Of a stretch of 32,170 bases of DNA, positions 1 to 15,608 are shown in pieces; within the stretch, counting starts at the first letter, position 1, and every line of letters begins with the position of its first letter. This stretch comes from Ignavibacteriae bacterium HGW-Ignavibacteriae-1. Lineage in GTDB: Bacteria; Bacteroidota; Ignavibacteria; Kapaibacteriales; UBA2268. The stretch is from assembly GCA_002839825.1 (NCBI GenBank), contig PGYU01000027.1, positions 1 to 32,170 of the forward strand, given 5' to 3'. The notes beneath the pieces were generated by a model. The model was not told where the DNA came from. It did not search any database and saw nothing but the letters and a program-made list of their open reading frames with translations. The position numbers and the translations under genes are program-made.

Positions 1-90
1 AAGAAACAATATTTAGAATTTTAAAGTTATTTGAAAATTGCACTCCATTTTTCCCCCTCTTTTAAGAGGGGGTTAGGGGGTGTTAAGAAA
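1..90 (+). repeat. Left copy of ~90-bp direct repeat
   Basis: This stretch is repeated at 578-667 (offset 577) with about 84 of 90 positions identical by eye. From 16 to 90 only two positions differ. It contains an AT-rich leader and one REP-like hairpin, and sits in front of the DUF559 gene as the other copy sits in front of the next gene. It reaches the window edge, so it may extend further left. Confidence 0.9.
53..84 (+). repeat. REP-like palindromic element, copy 1
   Basis: Arms CCCCCTCTT and AAGAGGGGG are separated by two bases (53-72), followed by a conserved G-rich tail ending GGGGGTGTT (to 84). The same unit occurs at 491-522 (reverse), 546-577 and 630-661. It lies 23 bases upstream of the DUF559 start codon. 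Confidence 0.9.
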
Positions 91-107
91 ACTAATAGAA
101 TCGAAAA

Positions 108-491
108 ATGTCATATGAAATACCATATAACAAAATACTTGTTGACTATGCACGAGCAAATAGGAAAAATCCGACATTGTCAGAAAAATTGCTTTGGTTC
201 GAACTAAAAAACAAGAAGTTAAATGGATATGATTTTCACAGACAAAAGCCTTTTGGTTATTATATTTTCGACTTTTACTGCCATCAACTAAAGTTGTTAA
301 TTGAATGTGACGGAGAAACTCACAATCATGAAATTACAAAAGTTAATGATAAACGAAAGTCAGAATATGCGGAATCTTTTGGTTATAAGGTGTTAAGATT
401 TTACGATGCAGAAATAGTCCATAATATGTCAGGAGTTCTTGAACGGATTTATGATTATATTAAAGATTATGAGTCGTTGAAAAAACAATGA
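108..491 (+). CDS. DUF559-family PD-(D/E)XK endonuclease-like protein
   Basis: A 127-residue protein of the DUF559 family, a small Vsr-like nuclease fold. Visible core: a helical N-terminus with TLSEKLLWFELK (23-34), then IFDFYC with Asp55, then LLIECDGETH with Glu66, Asp68 and His72, then the amphipathic segment DKRKSEYAESFGYKVLRF near 81-98. These match the family's acidic and histidine catalytic pattern, and the length is normal. The start has an A-rich upstream stretch and no clear Shine-Dalgarno. The stop codon overlaps the following REP-like element by one base. Family members are predicted DNA nucleases, often annotated as stand-alone genes of unknown role. Being enclosed by four copies of one palindromic repeat suggests a link to that repeat, which is inference. 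The family call is firm; the substrate is unknown. Confidence 0.88.
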   Translation: MSYEIPYNKILVDYARANRKNPTLSEKLLWFELKNKKLNGYDFHRQKPFGYYIFDFYCHQLKLLIECDGETHNHEITKVNDKRKSEYAESFGYKVLRFYDAEIVHNMSGVLERIYDYIKDYESLKKQ

Positions 492-522
492 ACACCCCCC
501 GACCCCCTCTTACAAGAGGGGG
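491..522 (-). repeat. REP-like palindromic element, copy 2 (inverted)
   Basis: This is the reverse-complement orientation of the unit: tail AACACCCCCC first, then arms CCCCCTCTT and AAGAGGGGG around AC. It pairs with copy 3 (28 of 32 bases complementary) across a 23-base spacer, so the two make one large inverted repeat just behind the DUF559 gene, like a REPIN. Confidence 0.9.
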
Positions 523-545
523 AGTAAGACAGGGGTTCTCTATTT

Positions 546-577
546 CCCCCTCTTTTAAGAGGGGGATAGGGGGTGTT
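546..577 (+). repeat. REP-like palindromic element, copy 3
   Basis: Forward unit with 9-base arms around TT (546-565) and the tail ending GGGGGTGTT. It forms the right half of the inverted pair 491-577, and is followed directly by the second direct-repeat copy. Confidence 0.9.
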
Positions 578-667
578 AAGAAAGAAATTTTTGAATTTTA
601 AAGTTATTTGAAAATTGCACTCCGTTTTCCCCCCTCTTTTAAGAGGGGGTTAGGGGGTGTTAAGAAA
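578..667 (+). repeat. Right copy of ~90-bp direct repeat
   Basis: This is the partner of 1-90. The 577-bp interval between equivalent positions carries the DUF559 gene plus three REP-like units. Recombination between the copies would remove the nuclease gene cleanly and leave a single leader in front of the gene at 674. Confidence 0.9.
630..661 (+). repeat. REP-like palindromic element, copy 4
   Basis: Forward unit (arms 630-649, G-rich tail to 661), ending 12 bases before the ATG at 674. It will form a hairpin in the leader of that gene. Read in frame it encodes an artefactual peptide ending in KRGLGG, which should not be included in the protein. Confidence 0.9.
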
Positions 668-673
668 AAGAAA

Positions 674-12266: not shown

Positions 12267-13904
12267 ATGAAACTTCTAATTATAATATTCTTACTATTCA
12301 TTTCAAGAATAGCTACATATGCTTCTGAATGGAAATTTACAAAGAATTTAGATACGGGACAAATTAATCCTTTGGTATGCTTTGATGATGGGATGTGCGT
12401 ATCTGTGGTTCAGCAAACTGGCCTAATAGAGCTTTACCATAGCTATGATGCTGGTGATACTTGGTCTTTGACCTATAAAGCAGACCCAATGAATGATGAA
12501 CCTAAATATTTACTGAATGTACGAGATTTTTCTGCACCCGATAAAGATAATTATTTTGCAATTTTCTCTGAAGGTAAATATGTTACTAAGAGCACTGACC
12601 GGGGTAAATCATTTAGTAAAATCTTAATATCAGAAGATTCTGACCCAACTCATATTTTTATGTTGGATTCTTTGCGTGGTATTATTACAGATACCCAATG
12701 GTCTGATGATACATTTTATCACTATATTTATATCACAGAAGACGGTTGGGAATCATATTCAATAGCAGATACCATGCTTATACGAGGCGAAATATATTGC
12801 ATTGATAAAGTTAATGAGGGAACATTAGGATTTTATGTTATAGCTCACACGGGAGAAATTTTTTCTACACAGTATGTAAATTTTAATATTAAAACTCAAA
12901 AATGGGAGAGATTATTTGATTTTAAAGTTGATACAACTTATTTGTCTTTTTATGATTTAGAAATTGTCAATGACAGTATAGCTTTTTTGGTTGGCAGTGA
13001 ACTGCTTGGTATAGCACATTACCAGTCTGATGTAATTTACCGAACTCGAGACGGTGGTAAAAATTGGGTCGCTGTGCTTGACAAAATTGTTGAGCCTAAA
13101 TTTGGTCTTCAATCAATTAAATTTTATGATGAATTGAATGGTATCGCAGTAGGTCAATATGGAAAAATTGTAATGACAAATGATGGTGGCAATACTTGGA
13201 ACTATCTTCCATTACCACAGCAGATGATTGACGAAGCACCATTAACCATGCGCATTGATTGGGCAGGCAAGAAGCCGGTAGTGGGTACATGGTATGGTAA
13301 TATATATAAGTATGAAGGAATGTTTTTTAAATTTCAGCCTATACCGGAATCAATTTGGCTAACAACTCCTATACATGGAAGTCAACAAAAAAGCGAAGAA
13401 ATAAATTTTGAGTGGGAACCTTCATCGCAATTAGATTCGTATCACTTTCAAATTGCAGATGATAAAAATTTCAAAAATATCTTTTATCAAGGAACTATAA
13501 AATCAAATCAGTTGACATTAAATGATTTTAAATATCTAACGAGTTATTTTTGGCGCGTTGGTCTCCGCCATAACAAAAAAATGATTTGGTCACCAACATG
13601 GAATTTCACAACGATGAATAAAGCAAGCGTAAGCGAGCCAAACTCTGTTTCATTTATCCACCCTAACCCTGCAACGGATTATATCGAAATTAATGCTGCT
13701 ATCAACCCTACGGTTAACCGTAGGGTTGATGAAGGTTCTGAAATCAAAATCTACAATATCCTTGGTGAATGTGTGATTGAATTAGCAGATGTCCAACATC
13801 TTGGAGATGTTGGACATCTACAACGCATAGAAGTTTCGCATCTCCCTCGTGGTGTATATTACGTCCGCTTCGGCAGCCGGACGCAGATGTTTGTGAAGAT
13901 ATGA
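12267..13904 (+). CDS. Exported YCF48/BNR-type propeller protein with T9SS sorting domain
   Basis: 545 residues with a signal peptide MKLLIIIFLLFISRIATYAS. A propeller of YCF48/BNR-like repeats follows at about 20-350 (YHSYDAGDTWSLTY, TKSTDRGKSFSKI, YRTRDGGKNWVAVLD, VMTNDGGNTWNYL). A fibronectin III-like domain lies at about 365-450 (INFEWEPSSQLDSYHFQIA). The sorting domain spans about 464-545 (HPNPATDYIEI, IKIYNILGECV, VSHLPRGVYYVRFG, MFVKI). The start has an SD-like GGAG six bases upstream. Two palindromes are embedded in frame in the sorting domain (residues 479-488 and about 507-518). A surface or secreted protein of unknown ligand; the closest relative in view is the gene at 14070. Confidence 0.85.
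   Translation: MKLLIIIFLLFISRIATYASEWKFTKNLDTGQINPLVCFDDGMCVSVVQQTGLIELYHSYDAGDTWSLTYKADPMNDEPKYLLNVRDFSAPDKDNYFAIFSEGKYVTKSTDRGKSFSKILISEDSDPTHIFMLDSLRGIITDTQWSDDTFYHYIYITEDGWESYSIADTMLIRGEIYCIDKVNEGTLGFYVIAHTGEIFSTQYVNFNIKTQKWERLFDFKVDTTYLSFYDLEIVNDSIAFLVGSELLGIAHYQSDVIYRTRDGGKNWVAVLDKIVEPKFGLQSIKFYDELNGIAVGQYGKIVMTNDGGNTWNYLPLPQQMIDEAPLTMRIDWAGKKPVVGTWYGNIYKYEGMFFKFQPIPESIWLTTPIHGSQQKSEEINFEWEPSSQLDSYHFQIADDKNFKNIFYQGTIKSNQLTLNDFKYLTSYFWRVGLRHNKKMIWSPTWNFTTMNKASVSEPNSVSFIHPNPATDYIEINAAINPTVNRRVDEGSEIKIYNILGECVIELADVQHLGDVGHLQRIEVSHLPRGVYYVRFGSRTQMFVKI
13701..13730. repeat. Perfect 30-bp palindrome inside coding sequence
   Basis: Arms ATCAACCCTACGGTT and its exact complement meet without a loop. 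It is exactly ten codons, in frame with the surrounding gene (residues 479-488, INPTVNRRVD). It falls between the first strand of the sorting domain and the conserved SEIKIYN strand. Confidence 0.95.
13787..13819. repeat. 33-bp palindrome inside coding sequence (AGATGT family)
   Basis: Arms AGATGTCCAACATCT and AGATGTTGGACATCT (15 bases, perfect) flank TGG. It is 33 bases long, a multiple of three, and is read as ADVQHLGDVGHLQ. It fills the loop between GECVIEL and RIEVSHLPRG of the sorting domain. The ends match the intergenic elements at 12063 and 15617. Confidence 0.95.
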
Positions 13905-14069: not shown

Positions 14070-15608
14070 ATGAATTCCACCCCAAAAATTACTATTATCG
14101 CAGCGTTAATCGCTGTATTGGTGCTATTTTCCTATGCTCATGCCAAGCCACCACCTGCTGACTTGGGCTACGAACCCCCTGACGGCTGGGAATTCGTTAT
14201 GAAGTTGGACTCATTAGCTGCCCATTTTTTACATTGTCACAACGACACTTGCTATTTTTCTGCGGCTTTTAGTGGGTCGCGAGAAACTCCTTTCTTTCAT
14301 AGGCTTTCAACAGATGGTGGCGAGACTTGGGAAGATATTAAAGAAATCTATCCATTAAACTTCAAAATGAACTCCAACGCTTTACATCGCATGACGGTTG
14401 ATATGGATGAAAAGCAACGCTATTACGAAGTATCTTATGATTTTTACAAGACAAGCGATAGATATAAAGCAATAAACATATCTTTAGGTGAAAAAGACTT
14501 ATTAGAAAGTCCTATTGATACAAATACGCTGATTTCTGTGCATGAGGGCAAACAAAGTACACATATGGGCTACATTCTTCATAATACGGCGGCACAAATA
14601 TCCCGAAACGCAGGTAGGAACTGGGAAATATTAGAATTGTATCGCTACCCTCTTGGTTATACTGTCTATACATTTAATTTTGATTGGGCAGAAAAAGGGC
14701 ATTGGTTCTACAAATCAAGTGACGGTTACGATGATTTGGATTACGAAAGACAACCCGAAAAATATTTCGAGACATTCGACAACGGTAAAACCTTCAGAGA
14801 AATCAAGTTTGACCCTATTTCAGAATTTAACAGTAATTTAAAAATTGGCGTTGACGGTTTAAAAACAATAACTGAAAAGACAAAATATTTTGCATCGGGT
14901 ATTAATATACAACAATACGACGATACAATAAAGAGTAACATTTTTTATGATTGGCTATATTTAAGTGACCCAAATAAACCTAAAAGTAATATAGATTCTG
15001 GTTATCGAAGAGCCATCACTTTTTTGGATAATTATTATCACCAAGATAACAAAAACTTGAACAATCATGTTGTAAGAATTTTTGAAAATAATGGTGATAT
15101 ATTAAACTCAAATTATACAATAGAGCACTCACTTTACCATAGTACTGATAATGGACAGTCTTGGAATTTGATAAATGATTTAGGTGAAAATCCAAACTTT
15201 TACGATTCTTTTTTGGATCAAAGTACCAAAACACTTTGGATACATGTTAAAGACGAACCTTATTTAAGAGGTAAAAACCATGCATATTACAAGGGTTCAC
15301 TCTGGAAACTCAAGTTACCATGGGGAGCGTCAAGCGTAGAGGATTTCAAAGGCGATGATGATAATATAGCAATTTATCCCAATCCGGCGATGGAATACAT
15401 TACAATTACGAAACCTTCCGAAGGTTTCGAACCTTCGGAAGGTTCAGAAGTCAAAATCTACAACACGCTTGGCGAATGTGTGAACCTCACCACATACCCT
15501 TCGACAGGCTCAGGGAGCGGATATTTAAGAATTGATGTTTCGCATCTACCTCGCGGTGTGTATTACCTTCGCATCGGCAACCAAACGCAGATGTTTGTGA
15601 AGATGTAG
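14070..15608 (+). CDS. Exported BNR-like protein with T9SS sorting domain
   Basis: 512 residues with a signal peptide (hydrophobic 8-24, cleavage near AHAKPP). The body has Asp-box/BNR-like turns (LSTDGGETWEDI, ISRNAGRNWEIL, HSTDNGQSWNLI), suggesting a β-propeller of low conservation. The sorting domain starts near 434 (IYPNPAMEYITI) and ends VSHLPRGVYYLRIG, MFVKM. The last ~60 residues are far more similar to the protein encoded at 12267 than the bodies are. Palindromic sequence again occupies the two loops of the sorting domain (PSEGFEPSEG and YPSTGSGSG). It has an SD-like AAAGGGA. Ligand unknown. Confidence 0.82.
   Translation: MNSTPKITIIAALIAVLVLFSYAHAKPPPADLGYEPPDGWEFVMKLDSLAAHFLHCHNDTCYFSAAFSGSRETPFFHRLSTDGGETWEDIKEIYPLNFKMNSNALHRMTVDMDEKQRYYEVSYDFYKTSDRYKAINISLGEKDLLESPIDTNTLISVHEGKQSTHMGYILHNTAAQISRNAGRNWEILELYRYPLGYTVYTFNFDWAEKGHWFYKSSDGYDDLDYERQPEKYFETFDNGKTFREIKFDPISEFNSNLKIGVDGLKTITEKTKYFASGINIQQYDDTIKSNIFYDWLYLSDPNKPKSNIDSGYRRAITFLDNYYHQDNKNLNNHVVRIFENNGDILNSNYTIEHSLYHSTDNGQSWNLINDLGENPNFYDSFLDQSTKTLWIHVKDEPYLRGKNHAYYKGSLWKLKLPWGASSVEDFKGDDDNIAIYPNPAMEYITITKPSEGFEPSEGSEVKIYNTLGECVNLTTYPSTGSGSGYLRIDVSHLPRGVYYLRIGNQTQMFVKM
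15409..15445. repeat. Double palindrome inside coding sequence
   Basis: Two overlapping palindromes: CGAAACCTTC/GAAGGTTTCG around C (15409-15429), and GAACCTTC/GAAGGTTC around G (15429-15445). They are read as part of TKPSEGFEPSEGSE, at the same sorting-domain loop that holds the 30-bp palindrome in the upstream gene. Confidence 0.9.
15497..15515. repeat. CCCTTCGACAGGCTCAGGG repeat-like element in coding sequence
   Basis: An imperfect inverted repeat (CCCT/AGGG ends). From memory, near-identical sequences occur as dispersed repeats in many bacterial genomes. It is read as YPSTGSGSG and sits at the second sorting-domain loop, the counterpart of 13787-13819 in the other gene. Confidence 0.6.

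Follow-up and report, generated by a model that had tools for sequence, protein, structure and literature searches.

At the left end of contig C2 of Ignavibacteriae bacterium HGW-Ignavibacteriae-1, a short DUF559 gene lies among four copies of a C-rich hairpin that carries a tail, and this gene and its repeats are the subject of the present analysis. The contig is 32,170 nt long, and we refer to it as the window. The gene (108–491, plus strand) encodes a protein of 127 amino acids, a predicted Vsr-like PD-(D/E)XK nuclease, that matches the PF04480 (DUF559) profile with an E value of 2.9e-31 and 108 bits at a cut-off of 20.6. The left end repeat (53–84, plus strand) consists of a hairpin at 53–72, a TTA linker at 73–75, and a mirror tail, GGGGGTGTT, at 76–84 that points toward the gene. 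The right end repeat (491–522, minus strand) is inverted, with its hairpin at 503–522, its linker at 500–502 (TCG on the minus strand), and its tail at 491–499, which also points toward the gene and touches its stop codon. These two copies, the nearest to the gene, face one another with tails inward. The third copy (546–577, plus strand; hairpin 546–565, linker ATA, tail 569–577) forms an inverted pair with 491–522, and the fourth (630–661, plus strand; hairpin 630–649, linker TTA, tail 653–661) falls within what looks like the leader of the following gene, an open reading frame at 608–2767. The three forward hairpins are identical, and the reverse one has a different loop and a different 3-nt linker (TCG, not TTA or ATA). 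A block that holds the left end repeat (1–91, plus strand) is 93% identical to a second block that holds the fourth hairpin (578–668, plus strand), and the whole locus is therefore a small array. An earlier note on this DNA had described four 32-nt hairpin-plus-tail units, one before the gene, an inverted pair after it and one more, and had found no copies in the other 31 kb. This arrangement is confirmed, and by the exact stem the window contig has only these four. The window begins at a contig end; the last 77 nt of contig C16 equal window 1–77 (compared by eye), the two contigs probably join at these common 77 bases, and a decayed further copy to the left of the element can be read in C16.

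The AlphaFold2 model of the DUF559 protein (pLDDT 91.9) matches, among the structures listed, the putative endonuclease NGO0050 of Neisseria gonorrhoeae (3hrl, Z 15.7), the homing endonuclease I-Bth0305I (3r3p, Z 11.9), and Vsr (1cw0, Z 10.0). By this model, the protein has a PD-(D/E)XK fold of the Vsr and I-Bth0305I type. Twelve residues are invariant in 47 aligned sequences (R19, E26, W30, R45, Q46, I53, D55, E66, D68, G69, H72, and D81), and the acidic and histidine residues among them (E26, D55, E66, D68, H72, and D81) indicate that a putative active site has been kept. YcjD, the DUF559 protein of Escherichia coli, was classed as PD-(D/E)XK in 2005 (PMC1189080).

The tails of the repeats follow a simple rule. 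Three nucleotides from the hairpin, the 3′ purine arm is reversed but not complemented, with each A either kept or replaced by T, so that in the window arm AAGAGGGGG is followed by linker TTA and tail GGGGGTGTT, and at other DUF559 elements arm AAAGGGAGG, for example, goes with tail GGAGGGATTT. In a purine-motif antiparallel triplex, G is placed on G-C and A or T on A-T. The mirror tail corresponds to this code for an intrastrand triplex, and the repeats are therefore of the PIT/BoxC/TM kind. Each end repeat can, as predicted from its sequence, fold one strand into a purine-motif intrastrand triplex, and an early nuclear magnetic resonance (NMR) model of an intramolecular G/T triplex reportedly has a layout equal to that of these repeats. 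An unfiltered test covered 152 hairpins near DUF559 genes that have a pure purine arm with an internal A: a perfect mirror tail stood on one flank in 100 and on the other flank in none, compared with a mean of 6.8 and a maximum of 14 in 300 shuffles of the arms. Perfect tails are present in at least half of the copies for 29 of 48 arm types, mostly with a 3-nt linker, and swapping tails among 67 pre-filtered elements lowered the score from 0.958 to 0.788 (p 0.0005). Reading the tail as a direct repeat of the arm, which would make an alternative Watson-Crick hairpin, was considered and rejected: in a set of 142 hairpins, pre-filtered for GGG in the flank, the mirror fitted better in 106 and the direct repeat in 5, with 31 ties. 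Under strict identity, with A to T disallowed, the mirror beats the direct repeat only 69 to 29, with 44 ties; this advantage is small, and the mirror rule thus rests on allowing A to T. In one repeat family (L278, L273, L274, L276, and similar loci; locus, genome, contig, and genus labels are our own), a variable mini-hairpin serves as linker, for example TGGC-stem-loop-ACG.

Repeats of this kind were described as "intrastrand triplex motifs", earlier PIT or BoxC, with a C-rich stem, a loop, a G-rich stem, a 3-nt loop (TTA or CCG), and a second G-rich stem (Holder 2015, PMC4666352). The hairpin, short second loop, and mirroring second purine stem of that layout are what the window repeat family displays; it shares the TTA linker too, and in both systems inverted pairs combine a TTA type with one that has a different linker. 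In the same source, TM_ECO oligonucleotides of the E. coli motif form a stable triplex by circular dichroism and NMR, melting at 70–82 C, and 3,610 copies are counted in 262 proteobacterial genomes. Among neighboring genes, PMC4666352 reports no functional class and "never" transposase or integrase remnants, the word endonuclease is absent from its main text, and earlier work that it cites found PIT motifs without terminator activity. Whereas the repeats of Holder come without a reported mobility gene, those described here are tied to DUF559 and extend to many more stem sequences and phyla.

The genome that contains the window (3.23 Mb, 43 contigs) holds 41 matches to the exact stem pattern and none to a reversed control pattern; one match, at the end of C16, is probably counted twice, as it equals window 53–72. 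Each of the two DUF559 genes in this genome stands between inverted repeats whose tails point inward; besides these bracketing repeats, there are about 34 dispersed copies. The second gene (C17:35660-35977) lies between repeats at 35570–35589 and 36050–36069, with loop ATCA and a tail ending in GTGTG. The mirror rule is obeyed by 38 of the 41 repeats, and all 38 have a 3-nt linker. Among these perfect-tail copies, the ninth tail base is T in 21 of 21 in which stem position nine is T-A, and G in 15 and T in 2 of those in which it is A/A. A second hairpin family, CCCTCTCC-NNN-GGAGAGGG, stands 43–54 nt from a first-family copy at seven places, and its tail rule holds in 9 of 10 exact copies, counted within the fetched loci. 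By eye, no GTAG was seen at the hairpin foot among the flanks of the 41 copies, one of which is cut by a contig end, and no CGTC tag was seen there in the flanks in this genome. One hairpin copy (L043 1500–1519; G000 C38:6299-6318) lies inside the apparent linker of a secretion-signal C-terminal domain and is seemingly translated; this domain resembles those of the window open reading frames 12267–13904 and 14070–15608.

Several lines of evidence tie such hairpins to DUF559 genes in general. A single-protein query against genome contigs found no relative; two profile-based samples were used. In 100 related genomes, DUF559 was matched in 54, with 132 matches in all, of which 72 were examined, picked by score or as short frames and not by their hairpins; two or three were dropped for short flanks, so that n is 69 or 70. 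A cross-phylum scan with a profile of seven proteins, one genome per species in 84,980 species, gave 569 candidates, and the best 80 of these, whose titles cover more than 20 names at phylum level, left 78 loci after L131 and L153 were dropped. The best ungapped inverted repeat between the 350-bp flanks scored at least 13 at 49 of 69 DUF559 loci in relatives versus 0 of 119 windows elsewhere in the loci, and at 31 of 78 cross-phylum loci versus 2 of 277 control windows, the 31 including L171 and L192, whose long inverted repeats have another origin. C-rich hairpins lie within 300 bp of DUF559 on both sides at 41, on one side at 18, and on neither at 11 of 70 relative loci, and at 47, 27, and 4 of the 78 cross-phylum loci, that is, on at least one side in 59/70 and 74/78. 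Their density is 4.2–4.4 per kb within 250 bp, 0.5–0.6 at 250–500 bp, and 0.09–0.34 beyond 500 bp in well-filled bins, about 25-fold higher near the gene than in more distant DNA. For 30 UPF0102 control genes in the same genomes, a C-rich hairpin was present on one side of 1 and on neither side of 29, and for GIY-YIG control genes it was present in 3 of 30. Strict elements (stem of at least 7, linker 2–4, perfect mirror tail) lie near 45/70 relative and 59/78 cross-phylum DUF559 genes, with 2.66 and 2.46 per kb up to 300 bp from the gene, compared with 0.087 and 0.074 per kb at distances above 500 bp; none was found in 95.6 kb of UPF0102 loci or in 90.5 kb of GIY-YIG loci. The lack of enrichment that the earlier note had named as a refutation was not found, the UPF0102 control being near nil.

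The gene and its repeats also appear to move together. Four pairs of similar cassettes from different places were aligned (L109/L110 within G011, L103/L104 within G090, L104/L112, and L058/L086), and at 7 of 8 ends the similarity stops no deeper than 5 nt within the hairpin unit and no farther than about 50 nt beyond it. By these alignments, the cassette is the apparent unit of movement, with its exact boundary left loose. In genus g25, seven places in G026, G039, and G051 hold miniature inverted-repeat transposable elements (MITEs) of about 200 bp that retain both cassette ends and lack the gene. Two of the sites (G026 C48 and G039 C80) are one orthologous site, and at another the MITE in G039 corresponds in G051 to a longer cassette with a 5′-truncated DUF559 gene. 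Gene-deleted copies that keep both ends, by which MITEs are assigned to an insertion sequence, are thus present in this genus. The only near-empty site, CACAT^CGCTGAT, is imprecise and comes from G051 C12 compared with G039 and G026. Several cassettes and MITEs of the genus (L098, L279, L283, L300, and L301) lie at coding remnants that we take to be RHS repeats (HLGNVRTVIS), which suggests that RHS-like remnants are a favored target there. At L053, L056, L069, L075, and L102, the DUF559 domain runs in frame into long proteins, presumably restriction-modification subunits or methylases, in some with hairpin-like sequence translated in between; in these proteins, cassettes seem to have inserted in frame.

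Dispersed copies also occur without a gene. One repeat of G059 is present in 82 directional copies, most of them listed in inverted pairs whose tails face each other, an arrangement known from the paired repetitive extragenic palindromic (REP) sequences called REPINs. In 20 stretches fetched from G059 and G098 on the ground that they hold pairs, the spacing between paired repeats is 40–117 nt in 19, and the remaining one, of 422 nt, holds a DUF559 gene. The ends of the G059 REPINs are those of its single DUF559 cassette. Copy number in genus g33 is 82, 36, and 25 where a matching stand-alone gene is present versus 0, 0, 4, and 11 where it is not (Mann-Whitney p 0.029, n = 7), and own-type hairpins occur in 18 of 100 genomes, with strong DUF559 matches (E at most 1e-15) in 14 of these 18 versus 30 of the 82 hairpin-less genomes (Fisher p 0.0016); both tests ignore relatedness and count gene-flanking copies too. 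At 118 loci whose element's tail side could be told, element similarity correlates with protein similarity in a Mantel test (r 0.51 across phyla, n = 64; 0.36 among relatives, n = 54; p 0.0005), and the correlation is almost the same after GC content is partialled out. Repeat sequence thus varies with protein sequence, and repeats were not equally common without DUF559 in the 100 genomes or in g33, an outcome that the earlier note had named as refuting.

A parallel case exists in E. coli. In MG1655, the DUF559 gene ycjD occupies 1351407–1351760, and a TM_ECO motif stands 167 bp downstream of it. Of 5,426 E. coli genomes, 3,365 match a 500-bp query for ycjD, and in 2,006 an alternative sapF-fabI allele, an efflux operon, covers its query. 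At L359, L360, and L363, the sapF-fabI interval holds either ycjD with a TM_ECO repeat or the efflux operon, as alternative contents, and the same alternation has been reported for eef (PMC12817139). A TM_ECO query finds 76,272 places in 5,375 of the 5,426 genomes, with a median of 16 and a range of 1–28 per genome with any. Gene and repeat were compared in three strains: AVS0153 has a single TM_ECO place and no ycjD at the locus, HS combines 16 places with a degraded ycjD pseudogene, and MG1655 has ycjD, with 17 places in an MG1655-labelled record. A PF04480 search of the E. coli genome in our control set gave no match although MG1655 has ycjD, and this genome may carry the ycjD-less allele. 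The gonococcal DUF559 gene has mirror-tail repeats nearby too.

Based on these data, we favor, at a probability of roughly two in three, the hypothesis that window ~1–668 is a minimal REP-like mobile element whose only gene, between inverted end repeats, encodes a Vsr-like DUF559 nuclease. Single repeats, inverted pairs (REPINs), and the ~200-bp MITEs are, from their shared ends, best read as its non-autonomous relatives. Under this hypothesis, the end repeat would fold when its G-rich strand is exposed single during replication, transcription, or repair, and the nuclease would recognize its own folded end and nick or cut there. Repair synthesis would then copy the element to a new break, or from repeat to repeat, in a homing-like manner. 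The gene would spread the repeats that carry it, and the repeats may outlive the gene.

A number of observations weigh against this hypothesis, besides the limits of the copy-number tests given above. The cassette edges are diffuse, reaching up to about 50 nt beyond the repeat, and the similarity of L104 and L112 is lost on the left before any hairpin. In genus g25, where the flanks are rearranged, neither a clean empty site nor a target duplication was found. Between a quarter and more than a third of DUF559 genes have no intact strict element (25/70 and 19/78), 11/70 and 4/78 have no C-rich hairpin at all within 300 bp, and tails are directed away from the gene in 39/109 (relatives) and 32/114 (cross-phylum). 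Plain co-inheritance could be enough to give the covariation of repeat and protein. The expectation that repeat number tracks the gene holds in part: presence and copy number are associated, and there are exceptions. G070 has 20 repeat copies and G048 has 5, both with no DUF559; G032 has 28 with a weak DUF559 match only, and G006 has 5 with only a weak match in a long frame. Three O157 records of E. coli have 12 TM_ECO places each and the ycjD-less allele is found in two other O157:H7 genomes, so the ycjD/TM_ECO rule is not strict. In vivo footprinting, as reported in PMC4666352, gave no stable triplex. Finally, the DUF559 protein VsrA of Caulobacter is required for a DNA-damage response that appears when a cytosine methyltransferase is absent (PMC12907096); it is tied to cytosine methylation, and some DUF559 members therefore have another job.

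The alternative that survives best, although we consider it unlikely, is that the triplex repeats are independent and that the DUF559 gene behaves as a homing gene, cutting gene-less repeats and being copied between hairpins by gene conversion without having spread them. I-Bth0305I is among the closest solved relatives, the orthologous site where G039 carries a MITE and G051 a longer cassette with a 5′-truncated gene could be read in this way, and repeats persist gene-less in G032, G070, and E. coli. Yet the gene-less derivatives keep both ends together with sequence inside the hairpins, which is easier to explain as deletion, copy number is high with the gene in genus g33, and repeat sequences tend to be particular to the DUF559 lineage. 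The window system shares with I-Bth0305I and Vsr the predicted fold (Z 11.9 and 10.0), but it has no sign of an intron and no separate DNA-binding domain in its 127 amino acids and is bracketed by its own repeats.

It is very unlikely, in our judgment, that a HUH tyrosine transposase (Y1_Tnp, or REP-associated tyrosine transposase, RAYT) spreads the repeats as a REP family with DUF559 as a passenger between two copies. RAYT-linked REPs share the REPIN layout, and Y1_Tnp is matched in 50 of the 100 relatives, with one weak match above the cut-off in the genome of the window (C31:26142). However, 30 Y1_Tnp loci held 2 strict elements in 92.3 kb, both at one locus, versus about 2.5 per kb near DUF559; G059, with its 82 copies, has just two weak Y1_Tnp matches; and the hairpin feet in the window's genome are without GTAG or CGTC. 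We find it highly improbable that DUF559 acts in repair or restriction as a Vsr-type enzyme and lies beside repeats that are only structure-prone hot spots of instability: the Vsr fold and the DNA-damage role of Caulobacter VsrA would fit (PMC12907096), but lineage-specific repeat families, enrichment over more than 20 phylum-level groups, MITEs, and REPINs with cassette ends are left unexplained. Hairpins at gene ends are common in bacteria, but that these are ordinary terminators or mRNA structures of an immobile nuclease gene is hardly credible, given repeats on both sides of the gene, often inverted, a mirror tail that a terminator does not need, up to 82 directional dispersed copies per genome, repeats near cassette edges in varied contexts, and the absence of terminator activity from PIT motifs in the earlier work already mentioned.

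REP elements and RAYT transposases are said to have been treated by Nunvar in 2010. Together, REP/REPIN sequences and RAYT (TnpA-REP) genes have been called "REPtrons" (Di Nocera 2013, PMC3733652). The window system resembles these in having an enzyme gene flanked by a dispersed palindromic family whose copies occur singly, in pairs, and in clusters, several such families in one genome that have genes of their own, and intragenic copies. It differs in having a Vsr-like PD-(D/E)XK enzyme instead of a HUH enzyme, a mirror (triplex) tail after 3 nt, and no GTAG. No HUH tyrosine transposase was found between the window repeats, where the gene is DUF559. Thus, the suggestion in the earlier note of a REP-like system stands for the organization, which is as in REP/RAYT, and fails for membership in the REP family itself, as there is no HUH enzyme and no GTAG and the repeat is of the PIT/BoxC/TM type. 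With the MITEs of insertion sequences the system shares gene-deleted derivatives that keep both ends; unlike them, it has no transposase, its parent encodes just a Vsr-like nuclease, and no target duplication has been established.

CGTC-tagged REPs, a further kind of REP-like repeat, are described in PMC3733652 as having a CGTC, TGTC, or CCTC tag, a stem starting AT, and a CCA tail, with a dedicated transposase lacking in that account (Di Nocera 2013). The window family does not follow this pattern, as its stem starts CCCCCTCT and its tail is GGGGGTGTT or GGGGGTGTG, and the two differ in sequence; in the genomes studied here, repeats of the CGTC kind surround GIY-YIG nuclease genes. In related genomes, inverted repeats of the form TGTCATTC...GAATCCA, which resemble CGTC-type REPs, bracket GIY-YIG genes clearly at L241, L244, L245, L250, L253, L256, L259, and L260, and in similar form at L243 and L257. 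Other GIY-YIG loci, including L238 in the window's own genome, have TGAGCTTGTCGAA-type sequence. The inverted-repeat score of the flanks is at least 13 at 15 of 30 GIY-YIG loci of all kinds versus 1 of 30 UPF0102 loci.

We tentatively extend our hypothesis, at somewhat less than even odds, to the proposal that DUF559 nucleases are the missing enzymes of PIT/BoxC/TM repeats, recognizing and propagating their own three-stranded end, and belong to a wider class of REP nucleases in which GIY-YIG enzymes would do the same for CGTC-type REPs. We know of no mobile element in which recognition of a triplex fold has been described. A search by title and abstract in open-licence PubMed Central, preprints not covered, found no paper that couples DUF559 to these repeats. 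As far as this search shows, the coupling of DUF559 and PIT/BoxC/TM repeats as one mobile system is new while each half is known, and neither the enzyme class nor the repeat fold fits a family of mobile elements that is known to us.

The triplex repeats are widespread and yet orphan, with a triplex in vitro and a link to genome instability, but with no function and no mobility gene, and DUF559 itself is listed in Pfam as of unknown function. The link between them makes both questions testable in E. coli K-12, which has ycjD and the repeats. If the link is true, REP biology would gain a second, non-HUH class of enzyme, and, because arm, tail, and protein sequences covary across phyla, these elements may hold a recognition code for DNA triplexes.

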